A stretch of 57,673 nt of DNA, taken from positions 1-57,673 of the IMG/VR virus record IMGVR_UViG_3300007754_000950, one strand, 5' to 3'. The notes under the pieces are model-generated. The model was not told the DNA's origin. It made no database searches and saw only the letters and a program-made list of their open reading frames with translations. Shown here piece by piece: positions 7,406 through 57,673 of this stretch. Both the position numbers and the translations under genes were made by a program. The stretch is from a virus. How positions within the stretch are numbered: the first letter of the stretch is position 1; every line of letters begins with the position of its first letter.

Positions 7406-7433
7406 CATATAATTGGTGTCATCAGGAGATGAT

Positions 7434-10967: not shown

Positions 10968-11139
10968 GATAGCGCATGTGGTCGATACCCACTGCGGTAT
11001 CGGTGATGACGGTCTATCTTATATTCTTGAACCTGGAATGAGCGGTCTTGTGGTGTCTATCACACCAGAAATTACGACGTTGCTTATTCATGATAGACTT
11101 GTAGACGTTAGAGGATATAGCCTGGAAGCTTTATCATGA
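10927..11139 (+). CDS. Hypothetical protein, 70 aa
   Basis: A small beta-rich protein (KIAHVVDTHCGIGDDG, TPEITTLLIHDRLVDVRG) that overlaps the J-domain gene by 41 bases and the next gene by 4 (ATGA). The fold could be a small SH3/KOW-like barrel. Not recognised. Confidence 0.55.
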   Translation: MKLRKEKSKVQEGKIAHVVDTHCGIGDDGLSYILEPGMSGLVVSITPEITTLLIHDRLVDVRGYSLEALS

Positions 11140-11972
11140 AACGTATTTCAAGAAAGTATTTAAGCAAAATAATAAAAGAAGAGCTACATCTGCATAATCT
11201 CTTGGAATCGAATGTGAAGTCTGCTCGTGGGATGTCCAATCGTGTTACAAGAGCGATTATGGACCTTGTAAAGGATGGTGCCACAAATAGAGAGCGCTAT
11301 GTTGTATTAACAATAGATGACTTAATCGATGACGAAGGATATCGGTCGCAAGCCACGACTGCGTATAATCTGGATATTGACTTTATTCCCGGAAAAATAA
11401 ACAGGCAGGCCGCTGATGAGGACTTCGAAGAATCAGACGCTTATTTAAGCGTTTCTCTTTTCGTAAACGAGGGTTCAGAACTGCATGTTTCGGGAGATGA
11501 TATTAACAGGACGGGTGACCCTGGAATTCATTTAACGATTATAAAGCCTGTAGAGTTAACAGGTGCAGATTTATCGACACTTCGAACAGAAATTTCAAAT
11601 TCTGTTCGTCATGAAATGGAACATATGACACAAAACCTTCCTCGCTATTATCAAGGGATGGAAAAACCTGACGGTGGTCGGTATGCATATGACGAATTTG
11701 ATATTTCTGGAGAGCCAGAATCTGATCGCGCGAAAGACTATTATCTCGATCCGAAGGAAGTGTCCGCTCATATTATGGGTTATGCACAGAATACATCATC
11801 AATAAGCGATTTAGAAGAAGAAATTCGAGAGATGCTTGATAATTGGGCTAGCCCAGACTGGGAGAAGCGTAAAAATGTTTTAATAGCTCCTGGTGACGTA
11901 GACATAATAGCGAATGCTTGGCTAGATTGGGCAAAGAAGCATCTTCGAGGGAAACGATTTCAAGGGAAATAA
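11136..11972 (+). CDS. Putative zinc metallopeptidase with N-terminal capsid-targeting-like tag
   Basis: 278 residues. The zinc motif HEMEH is at 159-163; a likely third ligand lies in the later segment DYYLDPKEVSAH, an arrangement seen in several phage metallopeptidases. Residues 1-24 (KRISRKYLSKIIKEEL, then HNLLES) are a basic amphipathic helix ending in an LxE site, like the tags at 26-35 kb and 45-57 kb. It may be packaged in the head and cut from its tag there. It lies far from the other tagged genes, next to replication genes. Confidence 0.65.
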   Translation: MKRISRKYLSKIIKEELHLHNLLESNVKSARGMSNRVTRAIMDLVKDGATNRERYVVLTIDDLIDDEGYRSQATTAYNLDIDFIPGKINRQAADEDFEESDAYLSVSLFVNEGSELHVSGDDINRTGDPGIHLTIIKPVELTGADLSTLRTEISNSVRHEMEHMTQNLPRYYQGMEKPDGGRYAYDEFDISGEPESDRAKDYYLDPKEVSAHIMGYAQNTSSISDLEEEIREMLDNWASPDWEKRKNVLIAPGDVDIIANAWLDWAKKHLRGKRFQGK

Positions 11973-25553: not shown

Positions 25554-26267
25554 ATGTCATTTGACGATAAAGAGATTAAGAAAGTTATTCGAGACACGCT
25601 TGGGTTAAATGAAGTAAAAGAGCGACTAGACGAAGCCTATGTGCTTCAAGCAAAGAAATACGATCTTAAGACAGATTTATTGAGCAGGAAAACAATCGAT
25701 ACACATCAGAAATTGTTACAAGGCTATGTTGAGACTGCAAATAATATTTCTGCTAAATTAGATTCTGTTGATAGAACAGAAGCGAATGCAAATGATTCTG
25801 CTTTTCGATCTTTGAAAATTGAGGAATCGTATAATTTAAATGCATCATTTCTTCATGCTTATTATTTCGATAATATTGCTGACCCCAACTCAAAGATAAC
25901 AATGGATTCGCTAGCTTATATGCGACTAGCCAGGGATTTTGGGACATTTGATGACTGGCAACGTGACTTTGTTGCATGTGCCTTGTCAGCGAGGAACGGT
26001 TGGGCAATGACTGTTTATAATTGCTTTTTAGATCGTTTCATGAACGTCGTTGTTGATCTACATAATATCAATATTCCACTAAATTGCTATCCAGTGATCG
26101 TTCTTGATATGTGGGAGCATGCATATTTCAGGGATTATCTCAGTGATAAGCAGAAGTACGTATTTGCTATGATGAAGGAACTAAACTGGGATGTTATAGA
26201 AGACCGTGTTAGCCGTGCCGATAAGCTTGCAAGGTTGTTTAACAAACCTTCGGAGACGAAGCAATGA
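25554..26267 (+). CDS. Fe/Mn superoxide-dismutase-like protein
   Basis: 237 residues. The C-terminal half has VLDMWEHAYFRDY, the metal-binding DxWEHAY motif of Fe/Mn SOD. Other likely ligands: His in KTIDTHQKLLQGYV (equal to E. coli H26) and His in ASFLHAYYFDNI; thus all four ligands seem kept. The first 45 residues are an added helix. SOD converts superoxide to oxygen and peroxide. It sits in the block of acidic virion-type genes, so it may be a structural or internal protein derived from, or acting as, SOD. Confidence 0.72.
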   Translation: MSFDDKEIKKVIRDTLGLNEVKERLDEAYVLQAKKYDLKTDLLSRKTIDTHQKLLQGYVETANNISAKLDSVDRTEANANDSAFRSLKIEESYNLNASFLHAYYFDNIADPNSKITMDSLAYMRLARDFGTFDDWQRDFVACALSARNGWAMTVYNCFLDRFMNVVVDLHNINIPLNCYPVIVLDMWEHAYFRDYLSDKQKYVFAMMKELNWDVIEDRVSRADKLARLFNKPSETKQ

Positions 26268-26917
26268 AAGAAAAAGATATACGAGAATTTTTTAATCGAG
26301 CGTATGCTCATCTTTTACGAGAGCAAGACGAAGAAGACCCGTTTGCGACGGACGATGAGGGTGGAGATGAAGGCGGTGACGAAGAAGCTGGTGACGAAGA
26401 AGCCGGTGATGAGACTGCTGAAGGTGAAGAGGGTGAAGAAGCTGAAGGTGAAGAGGAAGAGCCAGAGGTTGAGGTAGAAGAAGAAGACGAAGTTAGGTTT
26501 GGGAAATCGCTGGATGACCAATTACAGGCAATCTTTATTGATATAGAATCTGATTCGCTTAAGAGCGCCGCGATACAGGAAGAAGGATATTCGCTGTCTA
26601 GAATTCTTCTACGAGAGCAAGAAGATGACCCCGAAGCTCCTCCTATTGATATAGATAAATTTGCGAGTGAGACAGCTCGGCTTGTTAAGAACTTCGACGC
26701 CTTTTTTGATATTGAAGAGCTGCTCCAGGCGAAAGCTAGAAGCTTTTTGTTAGACAAGTATGGCGAGGAAATTGCTGATGAGTTTACTGACTTGCTAAAA
26801 GTGCGTCATGGTATCGAAACAAACGAAGAGGAGCGCGCTAAAAGAGAAGACCTCTCAACAGAAATACCAATTGCCGTTGGCGCTACTGCCGGTGGAGGTG
26901 GTGGTGGAGCTGTATGA
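26264..26917 (+). CDS. Very acidic prohead-core-like protein with two tag-like helices
   Basis: 217 residues. Residues 1-22 (EKDIREFFNRAYAHLLREQ) resemble the tag of other genes; a second copy lies near residues 107-118 (YSLSRILLREQE). Between them is a Glu/Asp/Gly repeat region (EEAGDEEAGDE). C-terminal helices and a Gly-rich end follow. This looks like a scaffold/core protein cut by the prohead protease. ATGA overlaps on both sides. Confidence 0.62.
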   Translation: MKEKDIREFFNRAYAHLLREQDEEDPFATDDEGGDEGGDEEAGDEEAGDETAEGEEGEEAEGEEEEPEVEVEEEDEVRFGKSLDDQLQAIFIDIESDSLKSAAIQEEGYSLSRILLREQEDDPEAPPIDIDKFASETARLVKNFDAFFDIEELLQAKARSFLLDKYGEEIADEFTDLLKVRHGIETNEEERAKREDLSTEIPIAVGATAGGGGGGAV

Positions 26918-33979: not shown

Positions 33980-34212
33980 TGACACATAGCGAGATCCTTG
34001 AAGAAGCCATTGGTCTCGGGAGCGTTTGCGAGATAAACGAGTGGATGGAATTGAAAAAACTTTTACTAGTCAGTCTTCCCTCTGATGCTAGGAGAAATTT
34101 CTCCACTAGAGACCCAAAAACAAAAAGACAGCACCTAAATGATTTTGAGCATTGGTTGATTGATAATTACTTCCGTGCACTTGGCACAAAGCTTGGAGTT
34201 GAAGATGAATAG
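33979..34212 (+). CDS. Hypothetical protein, 77 aa
   Basis: Small helical protein (SEILEEAIGLGSVCEINEW, HLNDFEHWLIDNYFRALG). ATG 33979 overlaps the previous stop (TAATGA). It overlaps the next gene by 8 bases. Not recognised. Confidence 0.5.
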   Translation: MTHSEILEEAIGLGSVCEINEWMELKKLLLVSLPSDARRNFSTRDPKTKRQHLNDFEHWLIDNYFRALGTKLGVEDE

Positions 34213-35452
34213 AGCGCAGCGAGCCAATGAGCAGTTTATCAGGCAACAAATTAGGAAAATTCTTGCAGAGTCTTCTCAAGAGCTATTGCTTGAGAATGAG
34301 TTCGGAGACTTTGCATCACCTGATGAAGTCTATAAAACTTTCATTGGTCCATTTGTTAACGTGATGAAGGTTGCCAAAACAGCTTTCAAGGATGTGTCAT
34401 CCGCCACTCTTATTTCTCTGTCTCATGCATTTTCTTTCAGTGAAAAAAATCGTGAGAAGCTCCGGGCAAAGTATAAAATAGATCGTGACAAATACCGGCA
34501 AGAATATGCTGAAACGATGAAAGAGATTGATGAAACGTTGGCATCTAGCGATGCAAAGTTGATGGCTTTTATGTTCAACCCTGGTGCATTTTTGGGTGCT
34601 CAAATGCTATCTCAAGCCAATGACCTGAATGAGCCGGTTTATGACTATATAAAGATGAGGATGGATTGGATCAGTCCAGAGCTAGACGCAGTTTTTCGAG
34701 ATGTTGACACCAAGAGGGGCGCAGAGGCAGGACCCGCTCGTGGCCTGTTGGGAGACCTCAAGGTGCTATTTTTTGGCGAGGGATATCAATCGGTCACGCC
34801 CTTGTTAGAAGCAGAAGAAGAAGGAAAGAAGGAAAAGAAGGAAGAAGAGGAAGAGCCTCCAGCTGAATTATCTGAAGAAGAAGTGATAGAAAGAATTACT
34901 AAAGCTCTTAAGGCTTCGGCTTGGGGTAAGCAATTGCGGAAGGATGCTGAGAATATCGTAAAGATGAAGATGGCTGAAATCGAGGAAGTAAAAGGGATGG
35001 TTCAGGATCAAATGGCTGCCCTTTCGGAATTAACATCTGCAAAAAGTCTGGAAGAAATAGCACCGGTCGCTCAAAAACTAAAAACAATGGATGTAGATCT
35101 CACCTCCCAACTTCAGGAAGTCGAGAAGGTTGTCACAAAGAAGAAAGAAGAGTTAGCTGGCCCTGACGGAAAGACAATGATGGATGATCTTCGAAAGTTA
35201 CCTGATGGGAAGAGTCTTCCGAAAGATGCTGGACCGGAGGATTTTGCACCGCTTCTAGAGAAGGGTATACTTGCAAGTATGTTTCAGGGAGCAACCGCGA
35301 AAGCTCGTCAAGAATTGCTTCAAGGTGTGATGGACTATGTCGCAGAAGACATGAAGCCAAGCGAAGTACAGGAATTCAAAGAAGCTGGTCCATTAGGCGA
35401 AAAATATTCTGATGTAATAATGAATTTCTCTAAAGAGCTTGCAAGCCTTTAG
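34205..35452 (+). CDS. Tagged internal-type protein, 415 aa
   Basis: The start at 34205 gives the tag NEQFIRQQIRKILAESS with ILAE|S, a close match to the prohead-protease consensus. A helical domain follows, with a hydrophobic stretch near 120-140 (KLMAFMFNPGAFLGAQM), then a Lys/Glu-rich linker and long coiled coils. Possibly a core protein or membrane-active internal protein. Last gene of the virion-type block. Confidence 0.62.
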   Translation: MNRAQRANEQFIRQQIRKILAESSQELLLENEFGDFASPDEVYKTFIGPFVNVMKVAKTAFKDVSSATLISLSHAFSFSEKNREKLRAKYKIDRDKYRQEYAETMKEIDETLASSDAKLMAFMFNPGAFLGAQMLSQANDLNEPVYDYIKMRMDWISPELDAVFRDVDTKRGAEAGPARGLLGDLKVLFFGEGYQSVTPLLEAEEEGKKEKKEEEEEPPAELSEEEVIERITKALKASAWGKQLRKDAENIVKMKMAEIEEVKGMVQDQMAALSELTSAKSLEEIAPVAQKLKTMDVDLTSQLQEVEKVVTKKKEELAGPDGKTMMDDLRKLPDGKSLPKDAGPEDFAPLLEKGILASMFQGATAKARQELLQGVMDYVAEDMKPSEVQEFKEAGPLGEKYSDVIMNFSKELASL

Positions 35453-45337: not shown

Positions 45338-46219
45338 TTATTTTTTGCTTCTTCCAAATAAGCGGCCTCTTTCTTTTTTCGTTCCACCACCACGTTGTTC
45401 CAGTTCCGTTTCGATCCATTTTTTACCAATCGGATTTTTAATAGGTCGATTGACAAATCCACCCACCGCTTTCTGTACTGCTTCGTCGACAGGGCCGTAC
45501 ACTGTGTTGTCAACAATCGAAATGTTTCCCTGTCCAAATAATCCTTGGAATGCGCCAAGGTTTGCTTGAACGTCTGTCCAGATTTCTTCAACTTTTTTCG
45601 GCGGCAGCTTTCTTGGTCGGTTCATATTTCTTTCTTGCGCAACCTCAAGCGTTGTGTTGACAAAAATCATGTAGGTATCATAGCCAAGTTTTTCCATGGC
45701 CTCTTTTTTCTTTTCAATTTTGGCTAGATCATCACCGGTTCCATCGATAATAACACCGAGCCGTGCCGTTGACTTTGTGTATTGCTGCGTAGCTGCTGTC
45801 TTGTATTGTTTTGCTTTCCCTCGAGGTGAGCTGGCAGGTACACCACGTTCATCGTCAAGTCCTAGCTCATAAGCTTTTTCGGGATCTTCTCTTGCAATTC
45901 TTGCAAGATCGCCTGGGTCGACACCTGCTTCTTCAAGATATTTTTCAAAAGCTGGATCAGAGTTAATAATTTTAAGTCCCATGGCCGTCGAAGCCGACAA
46001 TTCATTTGCGAGGCTTCCGCCAAAGAGCACTTTTGCCGTAAAGCTTTTTCCGCTTCCTGGACCGCCAGCCATAAAGACAGCTTTAAGAATTCCAGGATCG
46101 TAGATACCTTCGCTTAATAATTCTCTGATCGCTTCTCGGAGCGTGATCAGTTCATGCTTTGAAAGCTCTTCTCTAATAATATACTGTAATTGCTGTTTAG
46201 AGACATTTAGCTTTTTCAT
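45338..46219 (-). CDS. Zeta-toxin-like P-loop kinase with two N-terminal tags
   Basis: About 293 residues. Two tag helices come first: NVSKQQLQYIIREELSKH and ITLREAIRELLSEG, the second ending in an LSE site. The kinase core has Walker A FMAGGPGSGKSFTA, IINSDPAFEKYL and VIIDGTGDD, as in zeta toxins/polynucleotide kinases. Zeta toxins phosphorylate UDP-N-acetylglucosamine; T4-like kinases act on nucleic acid ends; the substrate here is unknown. Packaged delivery is inferred from the tags. The ATG at 46219 is chosen as the start of the tag. Confidence 0.72.
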   Translation of the reverse strand: MKKLNVSKQQLQYIIREELSKHELITLREAIRELLSEGIYDPGILKAVFMAGGPGSGKSFTAKVLFGGSLANELSASTAMGLKIINSDPAFEKYLEEAGVDPGDLARIAREDPEKAYELGLDDERGVPASSPRGKAKQYKTAATQQYTKSTARLGVIIDGTGDDLAKIEKKKEAMEKLGYDTYMIFVNTTLEVAQERNMNRPRKLPPKKVEEIWTDVQANLGAFQGLFGQGNISIVDNTVYGPVDEAVQKAVGGFVNRPIKNPIGKKWIETELEQRGGGTKKERGRLFGRSKK

Positions 46220-46285
46220 TGCTATTCCATCGCACACATACGCTTTTCATAAATATGCGGTCCGGCCAGATAAAAATGCTTAAGC

Positions 46286-47518
46286 TTATAGTCCACCAAG
46301 TAATGTAATAGCAATCAACCCTGGAATTCCTTCTTTTACATAGATGCCAGAGAAAACAGTATTTGCTCGACCACCGACGTATGAGAATGCTGACTCAAGT
46401 CGTCTTCCGACTTCGGGGTCCGAAGCCATGTTATTGTCCACCACCAGCAGCAGTGCACCTGTTTCTGTGTTTCCGCTTGGTGTAGGACAAGGAGATGAAC
46501 GCAAGCACCCCTGATAGACAAGAGAACCAAGGTCGTTCCTATTAACATCTCTAACAACTGTGCTTCCGATAACCATACGACCTGCTGTGCTCAAGCAGCG
46601 CTCCAAGTCCTTTGTATCAAATGTCTGGATTTCTGTATGCTCTGACGCAAGCTTAAAGACTTGCCACAAAAGCTTAGCAAAGTTTTTATTGGCTACTGGC
46701 ATCATGTTGAGAAGACCAGTCCTACCACGGAGCAACTGTAATTGTCTCTCGTTGTCTATTACAATATGGGGGCTAGTGCCTACATCACTCATAAGTGATT
46801 GATAATTCGACTTGATAGTGGGGTTGAGAAGCTCTTGAGCTGTTGGTTTCGTTACGATATAGACAACACGACCTGCTGCTTCAATTGACTGTAGGTAGCG
46901 GCTTAATGAAGAATCTAATTCGTGGCACGCGCTACCGGTTCCTCCACCACCACCGGCGATAACGAATAACCAATCGACCTGTCCGATTCGTGTTCGAGCA
47001 GCATCTTCAACAAATGCGCTGTTTTCTGCTAACACTTTTTTTCCAAGTGTGATATCTTTTCCAACACCATCCGCTCCGGGAACAAGAACAAAATGTTGCG
47101 GATCAACTCCGCCCGGCTGGTCCTTTTCAGTTGTGTTAACAAGTATTGTCTTACTGAATCCGAGATCGAGAAATGCTTTTGCAATTTTCCCTCCCCCTCC
47201 GCCAACGCCTATGAATCCACAATTAATAGCTGAAACAGCTGTGTTGTCGGGGAGTAGTCTTTCGTCTGTGGCCGCGGGATCATCATCGTAGGCCATTACG
47301 AAATCAAAATCATCTCCCGCATCTGGGATGTTGATATGTGCATCGTCCGTAGGATTATCGCTTGTTTGCGCTTGCTCTTCGATAGCTTTGTCATTGTCGG
47401 GCATAATTTTTTTTAACCTCTCAGAAATAATAGTGTCTGGGTGTGGCTTTATTTTCTTGTTCTCTTCTATGTTGGTGGGTTGTTCTAGTCCAACGCGGTT
47501 CCAAGATGTAGAAGCCAT
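46286..47518 (-). CDS. FtsZ/tubulin-like GTPase
   Basis: 410 residues. The tubulin signature is AGGGGGTGSACH (near 188-199), with an N-terminal nucleotide-binding GFIGVGGGGGKIAKAF and ILVNTTEKDQ. Residues 1-97 are an acidic extension not found in FtsZ. Phage tubulins such as PhuZ and TubZ make filaments that centre the phage nucleus or move DNA; this could do the same or disturb host division. GAGG lies directly before the ATG. It is on the minus strand beside the kinase and tmRNA. Confidence 0.82.
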   Translation of the reverse strand: MASTSWNRVGLEQPTNIEENKKIKPHPDTIISERLKKIMPDNDKAIEEQAQTSDNPTDDAHINIPDAGDDFDFVMAYDDDPAATDERLLPDNTAVSAINCGFIGVGGGGGKIAKAFLDLGFSKTILVNTTEKDQPGGVDPQHFVLVPGADGVGKDITLGKKVLAENSAFVEDAARTRIGQVDWLFVIAGGGGGTGSACHELDSSLSRYLQSIEAAGRVVYIVTKPTAQELLNPTIKSNYQSLMSDVGTSPHIVIDNERQLQLLRGRTGLLNMMPVANKNFAKLLWQVFKLASEHTEIQTFDTKDLERCLSTAGRMVIGSTVVRDVNRNDLGSLVYQGCLRSSPCPTPSGNTETGALLLVVDNNMASDPEVGRRLESAFSYVGGRANTVFSGIYVKEGIPGLIAITLLGGL

Positions 47519-47590: not shown

Positions 47591-47935
47591 TGGTGGAGGC
47601 GGCGGGAGTCGAACCCGCGTCCAAAGCAGTTTAGGGATCAAGTCATTCACAGGTTTAGACAGTTTTTCTAAACTGACAAATCTTCCGCTGGTGAAACCCC
47701 CCTGCTCGCGGATACAAGGTTCGAGCATTATTTTATTTCAGTGATGCTACTTCACTTAGCCTAAATTGGATAGATGGTTTTAGGCAACCACCCGATTACG
47801 CAGCTAGGGCGTATTCGAAGTGATTGTTGTTATTGGCAACTATCTTTTTTGAAACCGCGATTTAGGTCTGCTGTTTCCTGAGACCACCTGCACTCTTATA
47901 CTCCTTTGCTACCCTGTCGAAGCCATATCGCCCCC
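47591..47935 (-). ncRNA. ssrA: tmRNA (one-piece), tag ANNNNHFEYALAA
   Basis: 345 bases. The tRNA-like ends match: 5' GGGGGCG (47935-47929) pairs with CGCCTCC before CCA (47591-47593), with the G3-U pair that alanyl-tRNA synthetase needs. A T-arm GGGTTCGACTCCC is present. The coding part (47837-47796) reads ANNNNHFEYALAA then TAA; with the alanine carried it becomes AANNNNHFEYALAA, ending in the ALAA degron. Pseudoknot-like segments lie between. Rescues stalled ribosomes and tags the product for proteolysis. No smpB is visible; host SmpB may serve. Confidence 0.95.
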
Positions 47936-48774: not shown

Positions 48775-49314
48775 ATGTCATTATTGCGAGAATATATCAA
48801 AGAAATTCTTAATGAAAGCATTGAGTTTCGGACGCTTGATTCTCCCCTTAAGTACAGTCGCGCTTCAGATATAAAAAGAATAGCACTTTGCGATACATCG
48901 GTAGAAGAACCCCACATGGGCCCTACTGGCAAGCCCAAAATAGATGCATACTTCAACCAAAGACAAGAGATGGAATATTATGGCGCTTCGGGTCGACGAT
49001 TAAAGAAACCGAGAAAGGGCCAGCTGGTTCCCGGGGTTTCTGATGCTTGCGTTATTGGATTTTTAGACTACCACAAAGAAGGTGTTTCGTCAGGCGGAAA
49101 TGATATGTGGTACATTGACTATATGAAGACTCGTGGTGATAAAGGTGGCCAAGGGACTGCCAGCATGCTGATTGATGAATTTTATAACACTGTTGCCAAA
49201 CCTGGTGACAACGTTAGTTTTGGTAAGATGATGCGGAAAGAGATCGGTCACCTCAAAGATAAGATGGTAGACAAGTATCCAGAAGTTAGCACTAGAGGAG
49301 CAGTGAATTTCTAA
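48775..49314 (+). CDS. Tagged GNAT-like acetyltransferase
   Basis: 179 residues. The tag SLLREYIKEILNES occupies residues 2-15, with ILNE|S. The domain has ACVIGFLDYHKEGV and DMWYIDYMKTRGDKGGQGTA, which resembles the acetyl-CoA loop (Q/R-x-x-G-x-A/G) of GNAT enzymes. It could acetylate host targets after injection. The start at 48775 is chosen because it opens the tag. First cassette of the tagged array. Confidence 0.62.
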   Translation: MSLLREYIKEILNESIEFRTLDSPLKYSRASDIKRIALCDTSVEEPHMGPTGKPKIDAYFNQRQEMEYYGASGRRLKKPRKGQLVPGVSDACVIGFLDYHKEGVSSGGNDMWYIDYMKTRGDKGGQGTASMLIDEFYNTVAKPGDNVSFGKMMRKEIGHLKDKMVDKYPEVSTRGAVNF

Positions 49315-49574
49315 TGAAAATCACAAGACGACAGATTAGACAGATCATTGCTGAAGAGCTTGCGCTCGATCTTGAGGTTGGAGACATCATACTAACCGGT
49401 CGCTTCAAGAACAAGCGAACGGTGGTCAAGAAACTTGGTACCGATGACCTGGGCCAACCGACTGTGAATGGCATGAAAGTGTTAGCGTTCAGGATTGAAA
49501 AATTGATGCCGAAAGAGAAGTGGAGCAAGAAGACAATCGCCGAACTTGAGAAGGAAGAGGAAGATAAGAAATGA
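49314..49574 (+). CDS. Tagged small protein, 86 aa
   Basis: Tag KITRRQIRQIIAEELALDL, with IIAE. The remainder is a small beta domain (VGDIILTGRFKNKRTVVKK) and a charged helix tail (IAELEKEEEDKK). It may bind nucleic acid. Not recognised. Overlaps both neighbours (ATGA). Confidence 0.58.
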   Translation: MKITRRQIRQIIAEELALDLEVGDIILTGRFKNKRTVVKKLGTDDLGQPTVNGMKVLAFRIEKLMPKEKWSKKTIAELEKEEEDKK

Positions 49575-50251
49575 GGTTAACTGAATCTGCTTTACGACAT
49601 TTGATACGCAGAACGTTGTTGGAAAAGAGCTGGGCTGATTTCCAGGCACCCAAGGGAAAGACCATCCCTATCGATCCTGCAGATTTTGCAACCAATACTC
49701 CGAACGTGCGTGACTTGGATGAAGAAATATTTGACCTGATACAAGTTGCATATCAAGATGTCGAGCTAACGCCGGCGTCGGAAGAGGGCCCAGCGACATT
49801 TGGCAACATCAAAATTCAAAGTCCAGGGGATCTACCCTATAAATACACTATCATGAAGGGAGCCGACATAGACGAAGATCCTGACCCCGATTATTTTCGC
49901 GGCGGAAAGATGGTCAAGGGCCGATTCAAGCTGGGCATCGTCGGCCATGATGGAACTCGTGCTGCAATCGATCGCTATCTCGAAGAGACAGCAGCAGATC
50001 TAAGAGCTGGTGCAATTGCAGAGATGTCAGGGAAGATTGCACATATCATGATCACTCGACATGGAGTCCCTGCAGTTCAGACAGAGGAGGCTGTGGAAGC
50101 GATGCTAGGTAAAGAGGTGGACTGGACAGGCCGACATCCTAACGAGAAATATGCGAATAGGTACGGGCCTGATTATGAGGCTTGGTATTGTCGTGGTATC
50201 TCGGGGGCATGCGCCGGAGACCACATGAAGATTCTACTGGGCGGCGGATGA
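49571..50251 (+). CDS. Tagged protein of a conserved phage type, 226 aa
   Basis: Tag RLTESALRHLIRRTLLEKS, with LLE. The body has ADIDEDPDPDYFRGG, KLGIVGHDGTRAAIDRY and an end AWYCRGISGACAGDHMKI. It feels like a recurring phage family, but I cannot name a function. The many conserved-looking Asp, His and Trp residues suggest an enzyme. Confidence 0.55.
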   Translation: MRLTESALRHLIRRTLLEKSWADFQAPKGKTIPIDPADFATNTPNVRDLDEEIFDLIQVAYQDVELTPASEEGPATFGNIKIQSPGDLPYKYTIMKGADIDEDPDPDYFRGGKMVKGRFKLGIVGHDGTRAAIDRYLEETAADLRAGAIAEMSGKIAHIMITRHGVPAVQTEEAVEAMLGKEVDWTGRHPNEKYANRYGPDYEAWYCRGISGACAGDHMKILLGGG

Positions 50252-50718
50252 TGCAATTATTGAACGAATATGCAAGAGAGATTATGACATCGCAGGTTGA
50301 CTCCGGATGTATTGATCTACGTGTACGTGGCTTTAAAGTTAACGCTGAGCTGGCAACAACGACAGAAGCAAGAAATCGAGGCTTGATGCATAGACAATCG
50401 ATGAATGAGGATGATGGTATGTTGTTCGTTTTCCCTGACACCGACTATCGTTCATTTTGGATGGAGAATACCTTCATCCCGTTGTCGATTGCTTATCTAA
50501 CAGAAGCTGGAAAAATTATTAATATAGAGCGGATGCATCCTTTTAACCGAACTTCTGTAAGGTCAACAGAGCCAGCAAAGTATGCGCTAGAAATGAATGC
50601 TGGCTGGTTTAAGAAGCGAGGCGTTCAAGTTGGTGATGTTGTAAGTGGTATTTCTTCCATGAACGAGTCTATGCTCCGCGAGTACGTAAGAACTTTGCTA
50701 ATAGAACAGAGCGGGTAA
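50251..50718 (+). CDS. DUF192 protein with tags at both ends
   Basis: 155 residues. N-terminal tag QLLNEYAREIMTSQ; DUF192 core with KVNAELATTTEARNRGLMHR, DGMLFVFPDTDYRSFWM and NTFIPLSIAYLTEAGKI; C-terminal tag NESMLREYVRTLLIEQ. DUF192 is a small, conserved domain, often exported or membrane-linked, of unknown function. The next gene begins with another tag, so the C-terminal copy may be left from a fused cassette. Confidence 0.75.
   Translation: MQLLNEYAREIMTSQVDSGCIDLRVRGFKVNAELATTTEARNRGLMHRQSMNEDDGMLFVFPDTDYRSFWMENTFIPLSIAYLTEAGKIINIERMHPFNRTSVRSTEPAKYALEMNAGWFKKRGVQVGDVVSGISSMNESMLREYVRTLLIEQSG
50659..50709 (+). repeat. Tag copy at C-terminus of the DUF192 gene
   Basis: Encodes NESMLREYVRTLLIEQ just before the stop. 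Confidence 0.75.
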
Positions 50719-50721
50719 TTC

Positions 50722-52359
50722 ATGACTCTCCTCCGCGAATGCGTAAAAGAAATGCTTGTAGAAAGTAATGTACTTGCTACAGGAATGTGTTTTCCTTTCG
50801 CATACCAGAAAGCTGAAGAGTGGTTTAACGATCACTTTACGAAGGCTAAGCCGGGCCGCGGCCCAAAGAGGCACCCGAACTTAAATGACAAGAGTAAGTT
50901 CAAAGTTGTTCATGGTACAGTAACAGATAAGTGGAAGAAGCCGCCGAAGCCAGTTGTTCATGGGTGGGTTGAAATGGGAGATCTAGTCTTTGATGATCAG
51001 ACCAGAATAACAAAACCAAATGGTATTGAAAAAGAATTCTATTACGATATGTATCAGCCTGAGGTGTACAAGGAGTTCACTGCTGAAGAGGCTATACTCA
51101 ATTGTGCGATGAAGGGTGGTGAAGGGCCTTGGGATGATGATCTCTATGTGATGATGCAGGACCGTGATGCATGGATGAATGAAGCGCTACTTCGAGAAGC
51201 TACCGCGATTCGTGAGCCGTTAAATCTCTCTGTACCAGAAGACTTGAAAGATATCCACCGTCGTATGCAGCAAGCGGGAAAAGAATTATATGTCGTTGGA
51301 GGTGCTGTTCGTGATGCGTTGATGGGGAAGACTCCCAAAGATTACGATGTCGCTACGAATGCAACTCCAGACCAGGTGATTCGAATTTTACAGAGCCATG
51401 GCAGACTCAGGCTTGACTTAACAGGAAAAGCTTTTGGTGTGGTGAGAGTGAAGACCCCCGACAAAAATGAATACGAGATTGCAACATTTAGAGAAGATAT
51501 AGGCCCCGGTCGTCGACCTGAGGGCGTGGCATTCACCAGTATAGAGGGTGATGTAAAAAGACGCGATCTGACAGTGAACGCGTTGTTCTATGATATGAAT
51601 ACAGGCGAGGTCGTTGATTACGTTGGTGGAATAAAAGACATTGAAGACGGCGTAATTCGAGCCGTTGGAGATCCAGCCCAACGTTTTGATGAAGACAGGC
51701 TACGTATTTTACGTACTATTCGATTCGCAGGCCGAATGGGCGCAGAGCTGGATCCTGCTACAAAGGCTGCAATTCTTAAAGACAATAGTTTGACTGATGT
51801 TAGCCCAGAGCGTATAAGGGAAGAATTTTTGAACGGTGTTAGTTCTGCTGCTAACCTTGATCACTTTATAAACCTGATAACAGAACTGGGATTGTTTGAG
51901 CAGATATTCCCGGGTCTTCAAATTACACCGCTTTCTGGTACAGCCAGCAATCCGTATGTACAGGTTGCAGCATTGCTGGGTGATAATGCATCACAAGATA
52001 CGCAGCAGGTGCTGGAAGAAATGCGTTATTCTCGTAAGCAGATTATTCTTATTAATTTTTTGATTCGATTGAAAAGCATCACAAAAGAAACTGCGCCCCA
52101 ATTAAAGAAGGACTTCATTCGACACAAGATTTCTATTAATGATATTGAGGATTTCGCAGCTGTCACCCCTCAGCTTTCTGATCGTGTTGTTCAGGGCTTT
52201 TTGAAATTTGTTTCAAATCCGCCAGCCAGCAATCCACAAGAGCTAATGGCTCAAGGCCTTGCAGGTGAAGCAATAGGACAAGCTATGAAGGCAGCTGAGG
52301 TTGATGCATATTCGAGTTTGGTTGGCGAGTTAAGGTCGTACATACGGGAGCTATTATGA
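50722..52359 (+). CDS. Tagged polyprotein: papain/transglutaminase-like N-domain plus CCA-adding enzyme
   Basis: 545 residues. Tag TLLRECVKEMLVES (1-15). Residues about 20-145: GMCFPFAYQKAEEWF and VVHGWVEMGDLVFDD suggest a Cys/His/Asp papain-like fold. A degenerate tag (NEALLREATAIRE) lies near 153. Residues about 180-470: tRNA nucleotidyltransferase with VVGGAVRDALMG, KDYDVATNA, KRRDLTVNALFYD and FDEDRLRILRTIRFAGRMG. The last 11 residues are another tag. The CCA enzyme repairs or adds tRNA 3' ends; if packaged, it would restore tRNAs cut by host defences, an inference. Confidence 0.85.
   Translation: MTLLRECVKEMLVESNVLATGMCFPFAYQKAEEWFNDHFTKAKPGRGPKRHPNLNDKSKFKVVHGTVTDKWKKPPKPVVHGWVEMGDLVFDDQTRITKPNGIEKEFYYDMYQPEVYKEFTAEEAILNCAMKGGEGPWDDDLYVMMQDRDAWMNEALLREATAIREPLNLSVPEDLKDIHRRMQQAGKELYVVGGAVRDALMGKTPKDYDVATNATPDQVIRILQSHGRLRLDLTGKAFGVVRVKTPDKNEYEIATFREDIGPGRRPEGVAFTSIEGDVKRRDLTVNALFYDMNTGEVVDYVGGIKDIEDGVIRAVGDPAQRFDEDRLRILRTIRFAGRMGAELDPATKAAILKDNSLTDVSPERIREEFLNGVSSAANLDHFINLITELGLFEQIFPGLQITPLSGTASNPYVQVAALLGDNASQDTQQVLEEMRYSRKQIILINFLIRLKSITKETAPQLKKDFIRHKISINDIEDFAAVTPQLSDRVVQGFLKFVSNPPASNPQELMAQGLAGEAIGQAMKAAEVDAYSSLVGELRSYIRELL
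51175..51222 (+). repeat. Degenerate tag copy between the two domains
   Basis: Encodes MNEALLREATAIREPL, between the papain-like region and the nucleotidyltransferase. Confidence 0.55.
52324..52356 (+). repeat. Tag copy at C-terminus of the CCA-enzyme gene
   Basis: Encodes GELRSYIRELL immediately before the stop codon. Confidence 0.7.
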
Positions 52360-53975
52360 AGATGTATCATGCAACCACTCCAGCAAATGCTCGTGATATA
52401 TTAGCGAACGGTCTTGAGGTTGATGCTACCGGCGAAGCGGGCTATACCCAGGTGCACGCTCAATGGGCAGACCAGCTTTATGGTATGCGGCCTGTTTTTC
52501 TATCTGTTAAAAAGGGAAAATTCGCCGGGATTCCCTTGTTGGTCGACACAGAGGGATTATCCCTTGTAGCGGATTTAGCAGCTGTCGCAGACCTGGGAGA
52601 CGAGCCCCCCAGCTTGGATGGAGATGAACTTATTTGGTGGGATGGAATCGGTCCAGAAGAATTATCCCCTATAGCAAGTGACGGCGCGGTCAATATAGAA
52701 AATTTGCTTGTTCCCGGAAGTAGGGAAGCCAAGTTAGCAATTGCAGTTACGGGAACAGCGGCAGTGTTGGAAGATATTCCGCCTGATAGAATCAAGATTG
52801 CTTCATATAATGAAGCTTTCCTACGCGAGTATGTAAGAGAGGTGTTGAGCGAAGAAGTGGAACGCCAAACGGTGGGAAGCGTTTTAGACGCTTTAGGAGC
52901 GATAAAGGGCGTCGATGATGAAGCCCAGCGCAAAGAGCGTATGAAAAAGCTTGCTAAGAAAATTGGTTGGGAAATGGTCAAATTCATTCCTGTGGTTGGA
53001 AAAGGAATCAAGATGGCCAAGACAATCGGTGATATTTACAAATTAGCAAAAGACACTCCCGATGATCTGGCCACGAAAGACAACGTCGTTCTAGACATGC
53101 TGGATGTTGATGATAAGTATCAGCAAATGTTGGATGATCGGCTTGAAGCTGCATTCGATGAGGTCGTGATTCCTTGGCTCGAAAGCCTTCCACCAGATGC
53201 TCCACTCCCTGACATGAATAATAAATTGGAGGCTTGGGTTAATCAAAATTTCGATGAGCGAGGAATCCACGGCGCAGCCGGGGGTGTACCAGCTAGTTCA
53301 TCTCCTGTAATGAAGCAAGAAAATGTCGAGTTATCGTTGCGTCAGTACGTAAGGACAATGTTGGAGGCCGGTGAACTTGGTCGGCAAATATTTTCTGATA
53401 GGGCTCCGCTGGGACGTCATATGGGATCCGAAAGAGACACAGAGCTAGAGGGAGAAATTTGGACGGCATTATGGGGTCACCTGCAAGGCCTTAGTTCAAA
53501 AGTGCCTACAAACTTGCTAGATGCGATGGTAAGTTTTTCCAAAGATCCAGCTTATAACGACGTTTTCATACTACATACGAGTGGCGACGCCTACCGCGGC
53601 ATGGAAGTTTCACAAGAATACTTGGATGAACACGCGCCTGGCTGGAAAGAAGCAACATGGCCAACATCGAAACTTCACTGGCAGTGGTCTGATGTTATCC
53701 CGGTTGATTTCGAATATCAAAACCGGAATGAATCAAGAACAGTGTCTTCATGGACTCCATCAAGAGACGTGGCCGAGCAATTCGGTCGAGCCGGACACGG
53801 TATGGTGGGAGTAGTTTTAATCGCAGATTCGGCAACGAATACGTTTCTTGACTTGAAGGAATTGTACAGATTCGATCGTCTAGACGACTTTCATTGGGAA
53901 GAGGAGATCGTCGGATTTGGTTCCGTTCGAGTTAAGGGAATTAAAATCTTGAAGAAACTCGGGGGGCTCGGATGA
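52356..53975 (+). CDS. Polyprotein: ART-like domain, membrane-active domain and RSE-type ADP-ribosyltransferase
   Basis: 539 residues in three cassettes separated by internal tags. 1-150: KMYHATTPANARDILANGL to VLEDIPPDRIKIAS, an ART/Tpt1-like YHxT fold. Tag at 152-167. 170-310: TVGSVLDALGAIK, then MVKFIPVVGKGIKMAKTIG, a hydrophobic helical unit also present in the next gene. Tag near 325-340. 345-539: an RSE-type ART with Arg414 (AYRGME), STS-like SSWTPS (464-469) and the catalytic ExE Glu515-x-Glu517. T4 Alt and ModA modify host RNAP in this way. Prohead-protease release is inferred. Confidence 0.72.
   Translation: MKMYHATTPANARDILANGLEVDATGEAGYTQVHAQWADQLYGMRPVFLSVKKGKFAGIPLLVDTEGLSLVADLAAVADLGDEPPSLDGDELIWWDGIGPEELSPIASDGAVNIENLLVPGSREAKLAIAVTGTAAVLEDIPPDRIKIASYNEAFLREYVREVLSEEVERQTVGSVLDALGAIKGVDDEAQRKERMKKLAKKIGWEMVKFIPVVGKGIKMAKTIGDIYKLAKDTPDDLATKDNVVLDMLDVDDKYQQMLDDRLEAAFDEVVIPWLESLPPDAPLPDMNNKLEAWVNQNFDERGIHGAAGGVPASSSPVMKQENVELSLRQYVRTMLEAGELGRQIFSDRAPLGRHMGSERDTELEGEIWTALWGHLQGLSSKVPTNLLDAMVSFSKDPAYNDVFILHTSGDAYRGMEVSQEYLDEHAPGWKEATWPTSKLHWQWSDVIPVDFEYQNRNESRTVSSWTPSRDVAEQFGRAGHGMVGVVLIADSATNTFLDLKELYRFDRLDDFHWEEEIVGFGSVRVKGIKILKKLGGLG
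52809..52856 (+). repeat. Internal tag copy 1 in the ART polyprotein
   Basis: Encodes NEAFLREYVREVLSEE with an LSE site, between the first and second cassettes. Confidence 0.78.
53328..53375 (+). repeat. Internal tag copy 2 in the ART polyprotein
   Basis: Encodes ELSLRQYVRTMLEAGE, before the RSE-type ART. Confidence 0.72.
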
Positions 53976-55780
53976 GCTTGCTTCGAGAATATGTTAACGT
54001 CCCTCCAGAGGAAGAACTCCACCCAAGTCAGATGAAGACTGTCGGTGAGATCTTGGATCTTATCGAACGTATCCAAGAAGAAACAGACGAAGCCGGCCGT
54101 CGGGTGCGTAGTGCAAATGTCGGGATTGAATTCATAAAGATCGCCATGGGGGAGATACCACTCGTTGGTGGTGCGCTTGGTGCCGCAGATGGATTATTTG
54201 CCATGTACCAAGCGGGGAAGAATGAGGAACACACCTGGGCCGAGCTGGAAGAGTATCCCATTCTGGCTCGGATGAAGATGCACCCTTCTTTGGCCAAACA
54301 CCTCGATCCTGTAACACTGAAAGAAATTGATAAAGCATATCAGGGCTATCTTCAGGGTCTTGGTCGCGAGACGCTAGTCAGCGAAATCACAGATATCGAT
54401 AATTTTACGCATGATTGGATTATGGGTGATACAGACAGCAAGCTTAGCGTGGAGCTCCTACGTGAGTACGTAAGAGAACAATTTCTACTTGAAAGAGAGG
54501 AAGCAGAAGCGTCCCTGCTTTCAGGGGTGAGTGACTTTATAGAGACTCGTCATTATGATGACGTGTTAGATGCTGCGTTTAAACGCATAGCCCCTGGTTT
54601 AGTTCGTCATGTCATGGAGCAAGAAATCAACGAGGATGTTGCTGAATTTCTTGATGGCGCAATAGAGGGTCGGTGGGAGAAACAAAAAGGGTGGTCTTTT
54701 GAAGATCCAAGTCCAAAACAGTTGGGTCACTCTGAGGATTCTGCCGATTACATATTGGGGTACTCATGGGGCTGGAATAATGCAGACTCGTGGGAAGGTA
54801 ATCGATTGCCGACCCAAGCCAGGAAAGAAGCAGTTGAGGCGCAGATCGCAGAATTTGAAGATCAAATATCTGAGCAGATGGTCATTGCGGCGCTGGAAAC
54901 TGCCAATGAAAAGGTTAACCCCGTTAAGCTCATCAAAAAGGCAATTGGTGCAATTCGTAGTGCAGTTCGGGAAGAGGGTCTTTCTGGTGGCCTCAAAAAG
55001 GGCTTGCCTATCGCGATAGGAATTATTGTAGGGGAGGCACTCGATAATTTTATTATACCCATGGCATTCTTTTCGATGACCGGCATTCCCATCCCTCCGC
55101 TTCCGATTGGAGTGGGGGAAATCATTAATCCCGTAGTGATCAGTATGGTCGGTGCCGATATAGAGTCAGACGAACTAGTTGATGAGCTAGGGTGGTACGA
55201 GGAAGAGTACGGAGAGGCATCTTCGCTGGGTCCTCGAGAGACGAACGAGTTACGTGCGTATATACGAGAAGCGTTACTTACAGAGTATTGGCCTGCCCGT
55301 ACAGAGGGCAAGAAAAATGTCTGGCGTGGCATGAAGATCAAGATGTCACCAGCTATTTTGGCTTCAAAGGTCCGTCAGTACATTAAGACTGGCGAAGAGA
55401 AAGGAATTACGCAGCAAGAATTGATAAGATTTTTGCTTGGCCGTCTTGAGGGCGAAAGTACGGGTGCATCATGGTCGCTCAGCTTTGATGTTGCTGTTAG
55501 TTTTGCAGATGCCTGGGGAGCAACAAACCGTGGCGCCGAACTCCACGTCATATTTCAAGCCACGGTCGATGAAGAAGCTGGATACGATCCTCAGGCTGCA
55601 GGCGAAGAGCCCGGCTTGTTTTACGATGAGGCAGAAGTAAGGTTTAAGCCTGGCGCTGAGATACCTCTCACTGGAATTTACGTCTTTATCAAGTCTAAGG
55701 ATCAGTGGGCCAAGCAAAGGACTCAGTTCCGGCCTCTAATGATAAAGGCAGAAGACAATCCGATGATGGTAAAGGCATGA
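53972..55780 (+). CDS. Polyprotein: two membrane-type domains and an RSE-type ADP-ribosyltransferase
   Basis: 602 residues. Tag SLLREYVNVPPEEE (1-16). 18-140: KTVGEILDLIERIQEETDEA and MGEIPLVGGALGAADGLF, homologous to the middle unit of the previous gene. Tag near 160-176. 180-410: a helical domain with a hydrophobic end (LPIAIGIIVGEALDNFIIP, then GEIINPVVISMVGA). Tag near 424-439. 440-602: ART with Arg452 (VWRGMK), SWS (500-502) and Glu553-x-Glu555. This could form a pore or cross a membrane and deliver the toxin. The stop overlaps the next start by 4 bases. Confidence 0.72.
   Translation: MSLLREYVNVPPEEELHPSQMKTVGEILDLIERIQEETDEAGRRVRSANVGIEFIKIAMGEIPLVGGALGAADGLFAMYQAGKNEEHTWAELEEYPILARMKMHPSLAKHLDPVTLKEIDKAYQGYLQGLGRETLVSEITDIDNFTHDWIMGDTDSKLSVELLREYVREQFLLEREEAEASLLSGVSDFIETRHYDDVLDAAFKRIAPGLVRHVMEQEINEDVAEFLDGAIEGRWEKQKGWSFEDPSPKQLGHSEDSADYILGYSWGWNNADSWEGNRLPTQARKEAVEAQIAEFEDQISEQMVIAALETANEKVNPVKLIKKAIGAIRSAVREEGLSGGLKKGLPIAIGIIVGEALDNFIIPMAFFSMTGIPIPPLPIGVGEIINPVVISMVGADIESDELVDELGWYEEEYGEASSLGPRETNELRAYIREALLTEYWPARTEGKKNVWRGMKIKMSPAILASKVRQYIKTGEEKGITQQELIRFLLGRLEGESTGASWSLSFDVAVSFADAWGATNRGAELHVIFQATVDEEAGYDPQAAGEEPGLFYDEAEVRFKPGAEIPLTGIYVFIKSKDQWAKQRTQFRPLMIKAEDNPMMVKA
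54449..54499 (+). repeat. Internal tag copy in polyprotein 53972 (first)
   Basis: Encodes VELLREYVREQFLLERE. Confidence 0.76.
55241..55288 (+). repeat. Internal tag copy in polyprotein 53972 (second)
   Basis: Encodes TNELRAYIREALLTEY with LTE, immediately before the ART domain. Confidence 0.76.
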
Positions 55781-56328
55781 ACCTCCTCCGTGAATGCATA
55801 GAAGAGCTGCTCCGTGAGTCTCATTTTCCATTGACAGGTGGAGAGAAGGTGCGCATCCACCACAGCCGACAAGACACTAGAGACGGTAAAGAACCACAGA
55901 TCAGTGGTTTTTCACAGAGGGTTGGCTACAAGCCCAGTGGTCTGTGGTATGAATGCAAAGACGGTAGCTCGATAGACTGGCTGGAATTTTGTAGGACGGG
56001 CCTAACGGACGGTGCAAGTAGATATGATAGCGCATATAACGTTGTCTTGAATGATTATGAAATCTTGTTCATAACAGATAATCATGATTTTAAGAAATTT
56101 GAGAAGATGTACGGCGTTCCCAATAGCTACGGGGACATCAAGATTGACTGGCCAAAGGTCGCAAGTCATTATGACGGTATTGAGATCTGTCCCTATCTAT
56201 GGAAAATGCGACCGGACTCGGACTGGTATTACGGGTGGGACGTAGCGTCAGGGTGCGTGTGGAACGCGTCTGGAATAAAAGAACTTATAAGTGCAGAGGA
56301 GGGTTGTGAAGATGAATCCGCTGCGTGA
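55777..56328 (+). CDS. Tagged protein of unknown family, 183 aa
   Basis: The start at 55777 opens the tag NLLRECIEELLRESH. The domain has KPSGLWYECKDGSSIDWLEF, YDGIEICPYLWKMRP and DWYYGWDVASGCVW, a pattern that recurs in phage and bacterial proteins. I cannot name it; the KPxGLWY start and YDGIE segment hint at an ART-like or nuclease-type enzyme, unproven. Confidence 0.6.
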   Translation: MNLLRECIEELLRESHFPLTGGEKVRIHHSRQDTRDGKEPQISGFSQRVGYKPSGLWYECKDGSSIDWLEFCRTGLTDGASRYDSAYNVVLNDYEILFITDNHDFKKFEKMYGVPNSYGDIKIDWPKVASHYDGIEICPYLWKMRPDSDWYYGWDVASGCVWNASGIKELISAEEGCEDESAA

Positions 56329-56794
56329 GTATATAAGAGAGATCTTGACCGAAGACGCTGACTCTTCTGGAGTCACTATCAGAGTACAAAATTATGGAAA
56401 TGGAGTCGCAGCTGCTATAATGATGAGCGGAATGAGAATAGGCTCAGCTACAGCTCGCGAAGTTCTTAAGTACGAGCACTGTACAGAAGATGTAGAGAAA
56501 CTCAAAGCTCAGGGTTATGATTACGATAATCCGAAATTTCCGACCCTGGGGCCGACGCTATATGCGATAGGAGAATCTCATGTGGATGAAGCTTTTAGGG
56601 GATTTGGATACGGTAAGAAGTTATACAAGGCAATAATTGAAGAGATTGGTAAGCATGTTGGTAATCGTGGTGCCTTTGTCGGCGCTGATGAGTGTGCAGC
56701 GGGTTCTACTTCCGGCACCGCGCAGCGAGTCTGGAAGTCGGTGGGTCGTGATTACCCATCATCTGGTAATGTAGTTTATGTGGGACCAAAATGA
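56312..56794 (+). CDS. Tagged GNAT acetyltransferase
   Basis: 160 residues. Tag NPLREYIREILTEDA (2-16) with LTE|D. GNAT motif A is clear: SHVDEAFRGFGYGKKLYKAI, the R-x-F/G-x-G-x-G/K acetyl-CoA loop. Likely acetylates a small molecule or host protein after injection. Overlaps its neighbours by 17 and 4 bases. Confidence 0.72.
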   Translation: MNPLREYIREILTEDADSSGVTIRVQNYGNGVAAAIMMSGMRIGSATAREVLKYEHCTEDVEKLKAQGYDYDNPKFPTLGPTLYAIGESHVDEAFRGFGYGKKLYKAIIEEIGKHVGNRGAFVGADECAAGSTSGTAQRVWKSVGRDYPSSGNVVYVGPK

Positions 56795-57435
56795 ACCTGC
56801 TTCGCGAATATATCCGAGCTCTGCTCACCGAAGCTGCCAAGACCGTGGAAGATCTTCCTGAGGGTGCTTTCGTGACAATACTAAAAAGGTACGGCGGTTC
56901 ATCAGTGTTCGTATACATCGGCGATGAGAAGGGAAATCGGTGGAGGACTAGAGAGGAGCACGGGGAGAGGTATGATAATTCCATACACGCAGGAATAGAA
57001 ATTGCCAAGCCAAGACCGTCAGAGACCGGACCTTGTGGCGATGCATTCGTGGTGGAAGGTTCTGGAGCAACTCACGGTTGGGGTCCGTTAGTATATGATG
57101 TTGCAATTGAGTACGCATCGCTTGACGGATCTGGCGGCTTAATTTCAGATAGAAGTTCGGTTTCTCCTTATGCTCGACGTGTATGGGAATACTATATGAA
57201 CAACCGACCGGACGTCACAGCGCATCAATTAGATGACATGAAAGATACGCTAACTCCAGAATGGGAAGATAACTGCCAGCAGTGGATAGCCATGAAGACA
57301 ACGGTACCAGCATTCACCGCAGAAAAATCTGATGATACTCGCTGGGTTGATTCACCGCTCAGTAAGAGATACACGGCACCTCCCAAAACCATCGATGCGC
57401 TTCGTGCAGCTGGAAAACTGGTGGAGATTGAATAA
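56791..57435 (+). CDS. Tagged protein of unknown family, 214 aa
   Basis: Tag NLLREYIRALLTEAA with LTE|A. The N-terminal part is a small beta domain (GAFVTILKRYGGSSVFVYIG); the rest has HGWGPLVYDVAIEYASLDG and DRSSVSPYARRVWEYY, a pattern I believe recurs in phage proteins but without a known function. Confidence 0.58.
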   Translation: MNLLREYIRALLTEAAKTVEDLPEGAFVTILKRYGGSSVFVYIGDEKGNRWRTREEHGERYDNSIHAGIEIAKPRPSETGPCGDAFVVEGSGATHGWGPLVYDVAIEYASLDGSGGLISDRSSVSPYARRVWEYYMNNRPDVTAHQLDDMKDTLTPEWEDNCQQWIAMKTTVPAFTAEKSDDTRWVDSPLSKRYTAPPKTIDALRAAGKLVEIE

Positions 57436-57673
57436 TGAACCTTCTCCGTGAATACATAAGCGAGCTTTTGACAGAGATAAATCTTGGTCAGGGCTATGGG
57501 ATAGAATATACAGCATTTGTTCTGGACGACGCGTCACATCAGAAGCTAGCCGCTTTTGCTCCCGAAGGCTGGAAAGTCTTTGCTCATCACATGACGATTA
57601 TTAATCCACCCAACCAGAAATTACGGTTACCGTCGCAATGGCTTGACCAAGACCTTTGCGTGAGAGTCGTGGG
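57435..57673 (+). CDS. Tagged 2H-phosphoesterase-like protein (partial)
   Basis: Runs off the end of the window. Tag NLLREYISELLTEIN with LTE. Then YTAFVLDDASHQKLAAFAP and VFAHHMTIINPP, where HMT is an HxT motif of the 2H phosphoesterase/RNA-ligase-like fold. The second HxT lies beyond the window. Such enzymes cut 2',3'-cyclic ends or cyclic oligonucleotides, for example anti-CBASS Acb1, so an injected counter-defence enzyme is possible. Confidence 0.55.
   Translation, partial: MNLLREYISELLTEINLGQGYGIEYTAFVLDDASHQKLAAFAPEGWKVFAHHMTIINPPNQKLRLPSQWLDQDLCVRVV

Follow-up and report, generated by a model that had tools for sequence, protein, structure and literature searches.

Short N-terminal tags on many different phage proteins: a probable 14-residue variant of the T4 capsid-targeting signal

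The window analysed here is a 57,673-base stretch of viral DNA (IMG/VR record IMGVR_UViG_3300007754_000950) in which a row of genes with different domains begins with the same kind of short peptide, hereafter called the tag. Most probably, the tag both targets proteins to the capsid and marks them for the prohead protease, being a 14-residue variant of the capsid-targeting sequence (CTS) of phage T4, and the proteins behind it (the cargoes) would be packaged, cut and carried into the next host. Phage T4 packages, cuts and injects only a handful of proteins in this way, whereas in this lineage of very large aquatic phages 20–36 N-tagged open reading frames (ORFs) are found per related contig.

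The window corresponds to bases 180,575–238,247 of a 254,743-base IMG/VR contig (G001, IMGVR_UViG_3300007770_001284) at 99.998% identity. Kin contigs were sought with a tubulin/FtsZ-like protein as bait, which is encoded in the window at 46286–47518 (minus strand) and has a weak Pfam match (7.3e-5, below the cut-off). The scan of IMG/VR with this protein gave 47 loci, of which three hardly differ from the window, and five contigs of 254–293 kb (G001, G002, G003, G004 and G006) were taken whole as the kin set. ORFs of at least 50 amino acids (aa) were called by the longest-ORF rule, and the tags of the window served as seed for a tag profile, which was iterated on the very contigs in which its matches were then counted. 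A comparison of the tags across related genomes had been suggested by an initial annotation of the window made from its sequence; among the 1,800 ORFs of the kin set it yielded 244 matches, where shuffled proteins would give 3.7, and the first, un-iterated round already gave 104 against 3.7. The matches fall within the first 30 residues in 157 cases, deeper in 80 and at the C-terminus in 7, and those reaching the strict threshold (score ≥18) number 27, 34, 31, 35 and 42 in G001, G002, G003, G004 and G006, respectively. Eleven of the 244 were rejected as false positives, being a recurrent segment (LDRVNVRRMLLE and similar) in ORFs of more than 1,000 aa, which we take to be tail-sheath-like; ten of them, none scoring 18, were filtered before the cargo counts, and the eleventh (score 13.0, in a long ORF) fell by score.

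No strict match was found in T4 (267 ORFs), KVP40 (394), phiKZ (364) or Mel-JY01 (242), and at the loosest threshold these phages gave 2, 1, 1 and 9 matches; the T4 CTS itself escapes the kin profile. The Flavobacterium phage immuto has 3 strict matches in 224 ORFs. A search with a typed consensus tag returned a single record, the huge phage LR756508, weakly (E 3), and a 40-kb stretch of it, selected for a tag match and carrying its own gp21, holds 7 strict tags in 46 ORFs. In this record (140–180 kb) the tag-bearing ORFs adjoin gp21, whose match is split in two within a 576-aa frame. INPHARED, searched with the FtsZ-like protein and with the protein of the window ORF at 53972, gave no match. 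The tag is real, lies far above chance and is spread more widely than first reported.

Two flavours of the tag can be told apart, M(N/K)LLREYIRELLxE (flavour A) and MKITKRQLRRIIKE (flavour B), while 32 more tags match neither definition. The [LIVM]-x-Glu motif ends at core position 12 in 42 of 51 flavour-A tags and at core position 8 in 65 of 67 flavour-B tags; counted from the usual Met, residues 8, 11 and 12 are hydrophobic and residue 14 is Glu in both flavours. A start-anchored pattern written from the T4 map (hydrophobic at −6, −3 and −2 from Glu) was scanned with Glu at positions 8–30 and compared with 50 shuffles. Residue 14 stands out in every kin contig, with 18, 34, 27, 20 and 32 proteins in G001, G002, G003, G004 and G006 (shuffled means 0.9–1.8, maxima 3–8), and the next-highest offset holds 6–9 proteins per contig. 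The kin tags depart from the ten-residue T4 length, and the pattern with Glu at residue 10 occurs in 1–5 proteins per contig. The 131 proteins of the residue-14 set and the 148 N-tagged proteins of the profile set share 101.

In T4 the same scan peaks at residue 10 with 6 proteins (shuffled mean 1.5, maximum 4), namely IPII, IPIII, gp24, Alt, 61.1 and one more ORF. This peak is partly built in, because the pattern was written with the T4 map known, while the kin and Immutovirus peaks are not. Phage immuto (2-6A), a cultured relative that encodes gp21, has shorter tags of the same pattern: Glu stands at residue 10 in 8 proteins and at residue 12 in 7 (shuffled mean 1.2 each, maximum 4), with one ORF in both sets. 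In phiKZ, KVP40 and Mel-JY01, no offset in the scan exceeds the shuffled maxima beyond chance. Residues 4 and 7 of the T4 CTS serve targeting and residues 8 and 10 processing, as described in part of a T4 review (PMC9026906), and these four positions correspond to tag residues 8, 11, 12 and 14. Tag-like N-termini in immuto (MW353175) are seen, for example, at 24569, 25061, 103366, 109856, 111675 and 113188, one of them on an annotated 5'-nucleotidase. In T4, gene 61.1 (AF158101, 18966–19130), annotated as hypothetical, has the N-terminus MKTFKEFIKED, near the capsid-targeting peptide of IPII/IPIII, and its product is possibly an unrecognised packaged protein.

The window alone has no match to the T4 gp21 family (PF03420, S77); the T4-type prohead protease, whose absence would have refuted the reading of the initial annotation, is present in the near-identical 254-kb contig that contains the window (E 2.3e-25). 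Among the kin records, 15 of 21 have the family (E 9e-25 to 4e-28), as do 5 of 6 further tag-bearing contigs of at least 100 kb; of all contigs of at least 100 kb returned by the kin and tag searches, 20 of 23 have it. The capsid protein family gp23 (PF07068) occurs in the same 15 kin records. In G001, the order is gp21 (144949), a tag-like ORF (146122), an ORF called scaffold by its position (148008) and gp23 (149802), with other ORFs interspersed. The ORF at 146122 and its homologues stand between gp21 and gp23 and carry LKxxVKECLxEILxE in all five kin contigs, three of them passing the tag profile, and the N-terminus of gp21 has LLTE in three of five. Part of the T4 review gives the specificity of the gp21 protease as L/I-X-E (PMC9026906). 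Judged by position and motif, the propeptide region of gp23 ends in [IV]L[RK]E in all six copies of the five contigs (ILRE/Q, VLRE/S, VLRE/A twice, VLRE/Q and VLKE/A, against FLTE/A in T4), which is the likely cleavage site; its likeness to the end of the tag supports the tag as a gp21 cleavage signal. The T4-like capsid-targeting interpretation of the initial annotation is supported by the protease, the T4 map and the gp23 site. Two adjacent gp23 copies were seen in G002 (176269 and 178261) and likewise in G005.

In the mechanism proposed here, the amphipathic helix of the tag, with its hydrophobic residues 8, 11 and 12, would dock newly synthesised proteins on the core of the prohead. Once the head is assembled, the gp21-type protease would cut behind (I/L)xE at residue 14 and free the cargo in the head, and the freed cargo would then enter the next host along with the DNA. 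We infer these steps (docking, packaging, cutting and injection), and any consequence for the host, from sequence. Where tags stand inside a chain, one polyprotein might be cut into several cargo proteins within the head.

Such internal tags recur beside homologous domains. The 14 cargo segments of the window locus were traced in loci up to L173, with identical domains removed per query, and a tag lies within 45 residues upstream of 74 of 127 homologous domains (13 internal), against 61 of 7,536 random stretches; as two of the 14 queries overlap, leaving one out gives 117 domains, 70 tagged and 11 internal. In the GNAT-like family of the 48775 ORF, 10 of 11 tagged copies show a spacing of 11 residues between tag core and domain, and the remaining copy one of 12; four of the 11 are internal to longer proteins, and 3 of the 14 rows lack a tag. 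The family of the 56791 ORF has a tag in the tested stretch in 1 of 20 members and is mostly missed because its conserved part begins more than 45 residues past the tag. The ORFs at 52356 and 53972 are made of segments homologous to separate genes, with several domains per chain, and in seven other loci the last segment of the latter stands alone as a gene that is tagged close to its start. Internal tags therefore look like gene fusions in which the signal was retained, and this fits a cut site at the domain join; some fused copies are truly without an internal tag, such as that in L010 (ART-like segment, 247–398). AlphaFold2 models of the two polyprotein ORFs, run without alignment, were unusable (mean pLDDT 32.6 and 36.0).

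The tag might instead be a docking helix for a structure other than the capsid, such as an FtsZ/tubulin-like filament, a membrane site or a phage compartment, with a Glu that is no cleavage site. The tubulin/FtsZ-like protein of the lineage, with its weak Pfam match, would suit such a role; this explanation is nevertheless improbable, as Glu-14 hardly varies in either flavour and agrees with the site at which gp23 is likely cleaved, tags inside chains, at the joins between domains, suit cutting better than docking, and the tags of LR756508 adjoin gp21.

The cargoes are diverse. The 148 N-tagged proteins (20, 32, 30, 30 and 36 in G001, G002, G003, G004 and G006) form, with the tag removed, 94 BLASTP clusters at 1e-4, clusters that may still be remotely related, and 69 of these are singletons; either flavour can precede the same cargo. 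A Pfam scan covered 146 of the 151 tagged proteins with score ≥18, the five that span piece borders being excluded, and found 19 families, among them DUF192 (3), CCA/PolyA polymerase, zeta toxin, HD_4, GNAT and DUF2608 (2 each), and NUDIX, PAP2 and DUF2201 with single members. At most 29 of the 146 have any Pfam match, because the member counts of the families sum to 29. Profile searches of the PDB with four cargo alignments (A2–A5) gave nothing significant. DUF192 occurs in 11 of the 23 contigs, and the cargo set therefore varies. Tagged genes are adjacent 8–17 times per contig, above all 1,000 label shuffles in each of the five contigs, and G003 has a run of ten. Several of the enzyme types would suit host take-over or counter-defence.

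Several observations weigh against the tag as a T4-type packaging signal. Six of the 21 kin records and one of the six further contigs have no gp21 match, although all of these may be fragments, and the matching contigs are not independent, because several are near copies of each other. KVP40 and Mel-JY01 have gp21, yet KVP40 shows no clear peak at residue 10 (4 against 2.4) and Mel-JY01 none; the gp21 N-terminus reads LLTS or VITD in two of five kin contigs, and 53 of the 127 domain homologues lack a tag in the stretch examined. Moreover, the cargoes are acidic, with a median net charge per 100 aa of −3.7 for flavour A and −8.0 for flavour B (other tagged proteins −0.9, untagged −1.6), whereas part of the T4 review describes the T4 internal proteins as basic (PMC9026906). 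Finally, some tag copies appear to be recent duplicates, because same-residue codon agreement between same-flavour tags within a contig exceeds the expectation from codon usage (flavour A 41.7% against 34.8%, flavour B 54.2% against 38.2%).

The charge of the cargoes bears on a second explanation, which we consider rather unlikely: the tag would lead to the head core and to cutting, and the cargoes would work in the particle or its assembly, by filling the core, condensing DNA or handling NTPs or RNA in the cell, and not as injected effectors. The flavour-B cargoes, small (median 98.5 aa) and acidic, would suit the core, as would the tag-like ORF within the head gene cluster, and some cargoes are housekeeping-like (CCA enzyme, DUF192); set against these, the diversity of the 94 clusters and 69 singletons, which includes a zeta-toxin-like kinase, HD_4, NUDIX and GNAT proteins, looks more host-acting. 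The codon agreement, clearest in flavour B, could in turn point to a recently duplicated leader that spread by duplication or recombination and has no function of its own. This is very doubtful, since, with the residues fixed, codons disagree in roughly half or more of the same-residue comparisons, one ruler holds for two flavours, and the tag persists in five contigs and on 94 cargo clusters. It is chiefly the protein sequence of the tag that is conserved, and some copies are recent.

Compared with the CTS of T4 (IPII/IPIII and the gp24 and Alt propeptides), the tag is likewise an N-terminal peptide with hydrophobic residues at −6, −3 and −2 from a conserved Glu and an L/I-x-E end; it is common to different cargoes, and the kin contigs encode a gp21-family protease and a gp23-family capsid protein. 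It differs in its length (14 residues against 10), the number of proteins, its two flavours, its internal and C-terminal copies and its acidic cargo, and is filed as a CTS variant because its Glu stands at residue 14, not 10. By means of the CTS, T4-like phages may be able to take up a variety of proteins, as the T4 review suggests (PMC9026906), so the kind of system is already known; neither the letters nor a description of the tag was found in the open-access literature searched. The novelty claimed for the tag in the initial annotation accordingly narrows to the variant and the extent of its use. Polyvalent proteins of phages and conjugative elements, as portrayed in part of their description (PMC5512222), are also multidomain and proposed to be injected with the DNA; domains known from them include ART of the HYD2 clade, MPTase and ParB. 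Here, likewise, several domains share a chain, but tags that can be taken as predicted cut sites stand between the kin segments, and many cargoes are encoded singly, each by a tagged gene of its own. A further comparison is with the head propeptides and ejection proteins of phiKZ and SPN3US, in which head proteins are also cut after Glu, by a distant gp21 relative, as stated in part of the T4 review (PMC9026906); the phiKZ motif given there is S/A-x-E, unlike the kin tag, and phiKZ has no strict tag and no PF03420 match.

A broader proposal stands at about even chances: a length-coded label of these large aquatic phages would load perhaps 20–36 different proteins per phage into the head, its internal copies would turn fused genes into polyproteins cut within the particle into several injected effectors, and each phage's own core and protease would determine its length (10 in T4, 10 and 12 in Immutovirus, 14 here). 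If so, injected cargo would be predictable from sequence alone. As a rule, only proteomics reveals which phage proteins accompany the DNA into the host. With a readable packaging code, dozens of unannotated genes in each genome could be predicted to encode injected proteins, and some of these may affect the defences or metabolism of the host; such a code would also widen the T4 mechanism from a few proteins to a whole cargo system. The injected effector set proposed in the initial annotation is likewise something that we infer.

The tagged genes of the window are listed in Table 1. Ten of them had been reported to begin with a tag ending in (I/L)xE; eight carry the full tag, and those at 50251, where it ends in IMTS without Glu, and at 53972 are degenerate. 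Seven (48775, 49314, 50722, 55777, 56312, 56791 and 57435) follow the strict start-anchored Glu-14 rule, and the tag at 49571 ends in TLLE at residue 18. The initial annotation had overlooked the internal or C-terminal tags in the ORFs at 52356 (without an N-terminal tag), 53972, 50251 and 50722, the last ending in ELRSYIRELL, by reading a shortened tag copy, as well as the tagged genes at 45338–46237 and 34205. Among its cargo labels, DUF192 and the CCA enzyme (CCA/PolyA_pol, Pfam 9.2e-37) are confirmed, the GNAT label is weak (6.4e-4 for 56312, just under the curated cut-off, and 0.0018, below the cut-off, for a relative of 48775), and so is the 2H-like label (0.012). The ART label is unconfirmed: an RGM...SW...E motif in the last segment of the 53972 polyprotein is ART-like by reading only, and the ART-like segments matched nothing in Pfam and nothing significantly in PDB profile searches. 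The ORF at 57435 is complete in the larger contig (154 aa).

Table 1. Tag-bearing genes of the window (E14 rule, Glu at residue 14).
Coordinates	Strand	Feature	Basis
48775–49314	+	Tag MSLLREYIKEILNE (48775–48816), then GNAT-like domain	Sequence, E14 rule, homologues with equal tag spacing
49314–49574	+	Flavour-B tag MKITRRQIRQIIAE, small cargo	E14 rule; 6/6 family members (itself included) tagged
49571–50251	+	Tag MRLTESALRHLIRRTLLE, unknown domain	10/10 family members (itself included) tagged
50251–50718	+	DUF192 protein; degenerate N-terminal tag, C-terminal tag MLREYVRTLLIE (50671–50706)	Pfam 1.3e-32, profile
50722–52359	+	Tag MTLLRECVKEMLVE, conserved H/D-rich domain, then CCA/PolyA polymerase	Pfam, E14 rule
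52356–53975	+	Polyprotein of three segments; internal tags 52818–52853, 53334–53369	Profile
53972–55780	+	Polyprotein; degenerate N-terminal tag MSLLREYVNVPPEEE, internal tags 54455–54490, 55247–55282	Profile
55777–56328	+	Tag MNLLRECIEELLRE, unknown domain	Sequence, E14 rule
56312–56794	+	Tag MNPLREYIREILTE, weak GNAT-like	Pfam, E14 rule
56791–57435	+	Tag MNLLREYIRALLTE, unknown domain family (17 sequences aligned, itself included)	Alignment, E14 rule
57435–57673	+	Tag MNLLREYISELLTE, weak 2H phosphodiesterase signal; ORF cut by window end	E14 rule, profile search
45338–46237	-	Zeta-toxin-like kinase; tandem tags QLQYIIREELSK (score 12.7) and TLREAIRELLSE (score 23.2, 46109–46144)	Profile
34205–35452	+	Tagged ORF FIRQQIRKILAE	Profile; tagged homologues in 3/4 other kin contigs
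11136–11972	+	Weak flavour-B tag YLSKIIKEELHL (score 13.2)	Profile

The lineage possibly belongs among the moraphages, for which a prohead protease and a glutamine synthetase are named in part of their description (PMC12619734); a glutamine synthetase was seen in the window at 7413–8441, by reading only. At 25554–26267, a superoxide-dismutase domain (Sod_Fe_C, 7.2e-19) stands behind a tag-like N-terminus, MSFDDKEIKKVIRDTLGLNE, recognised by reading and below the profile threshold, and would join the possible packaged cargo. The next ORF (26264–26917) is very acidic, has LLREQ sites and resembles T4 gp67 by reading only. As well, the window carries a phage-borne tmRNA at 47591–47935 (minus strand) with the tag ANNNNHFEYALAA.

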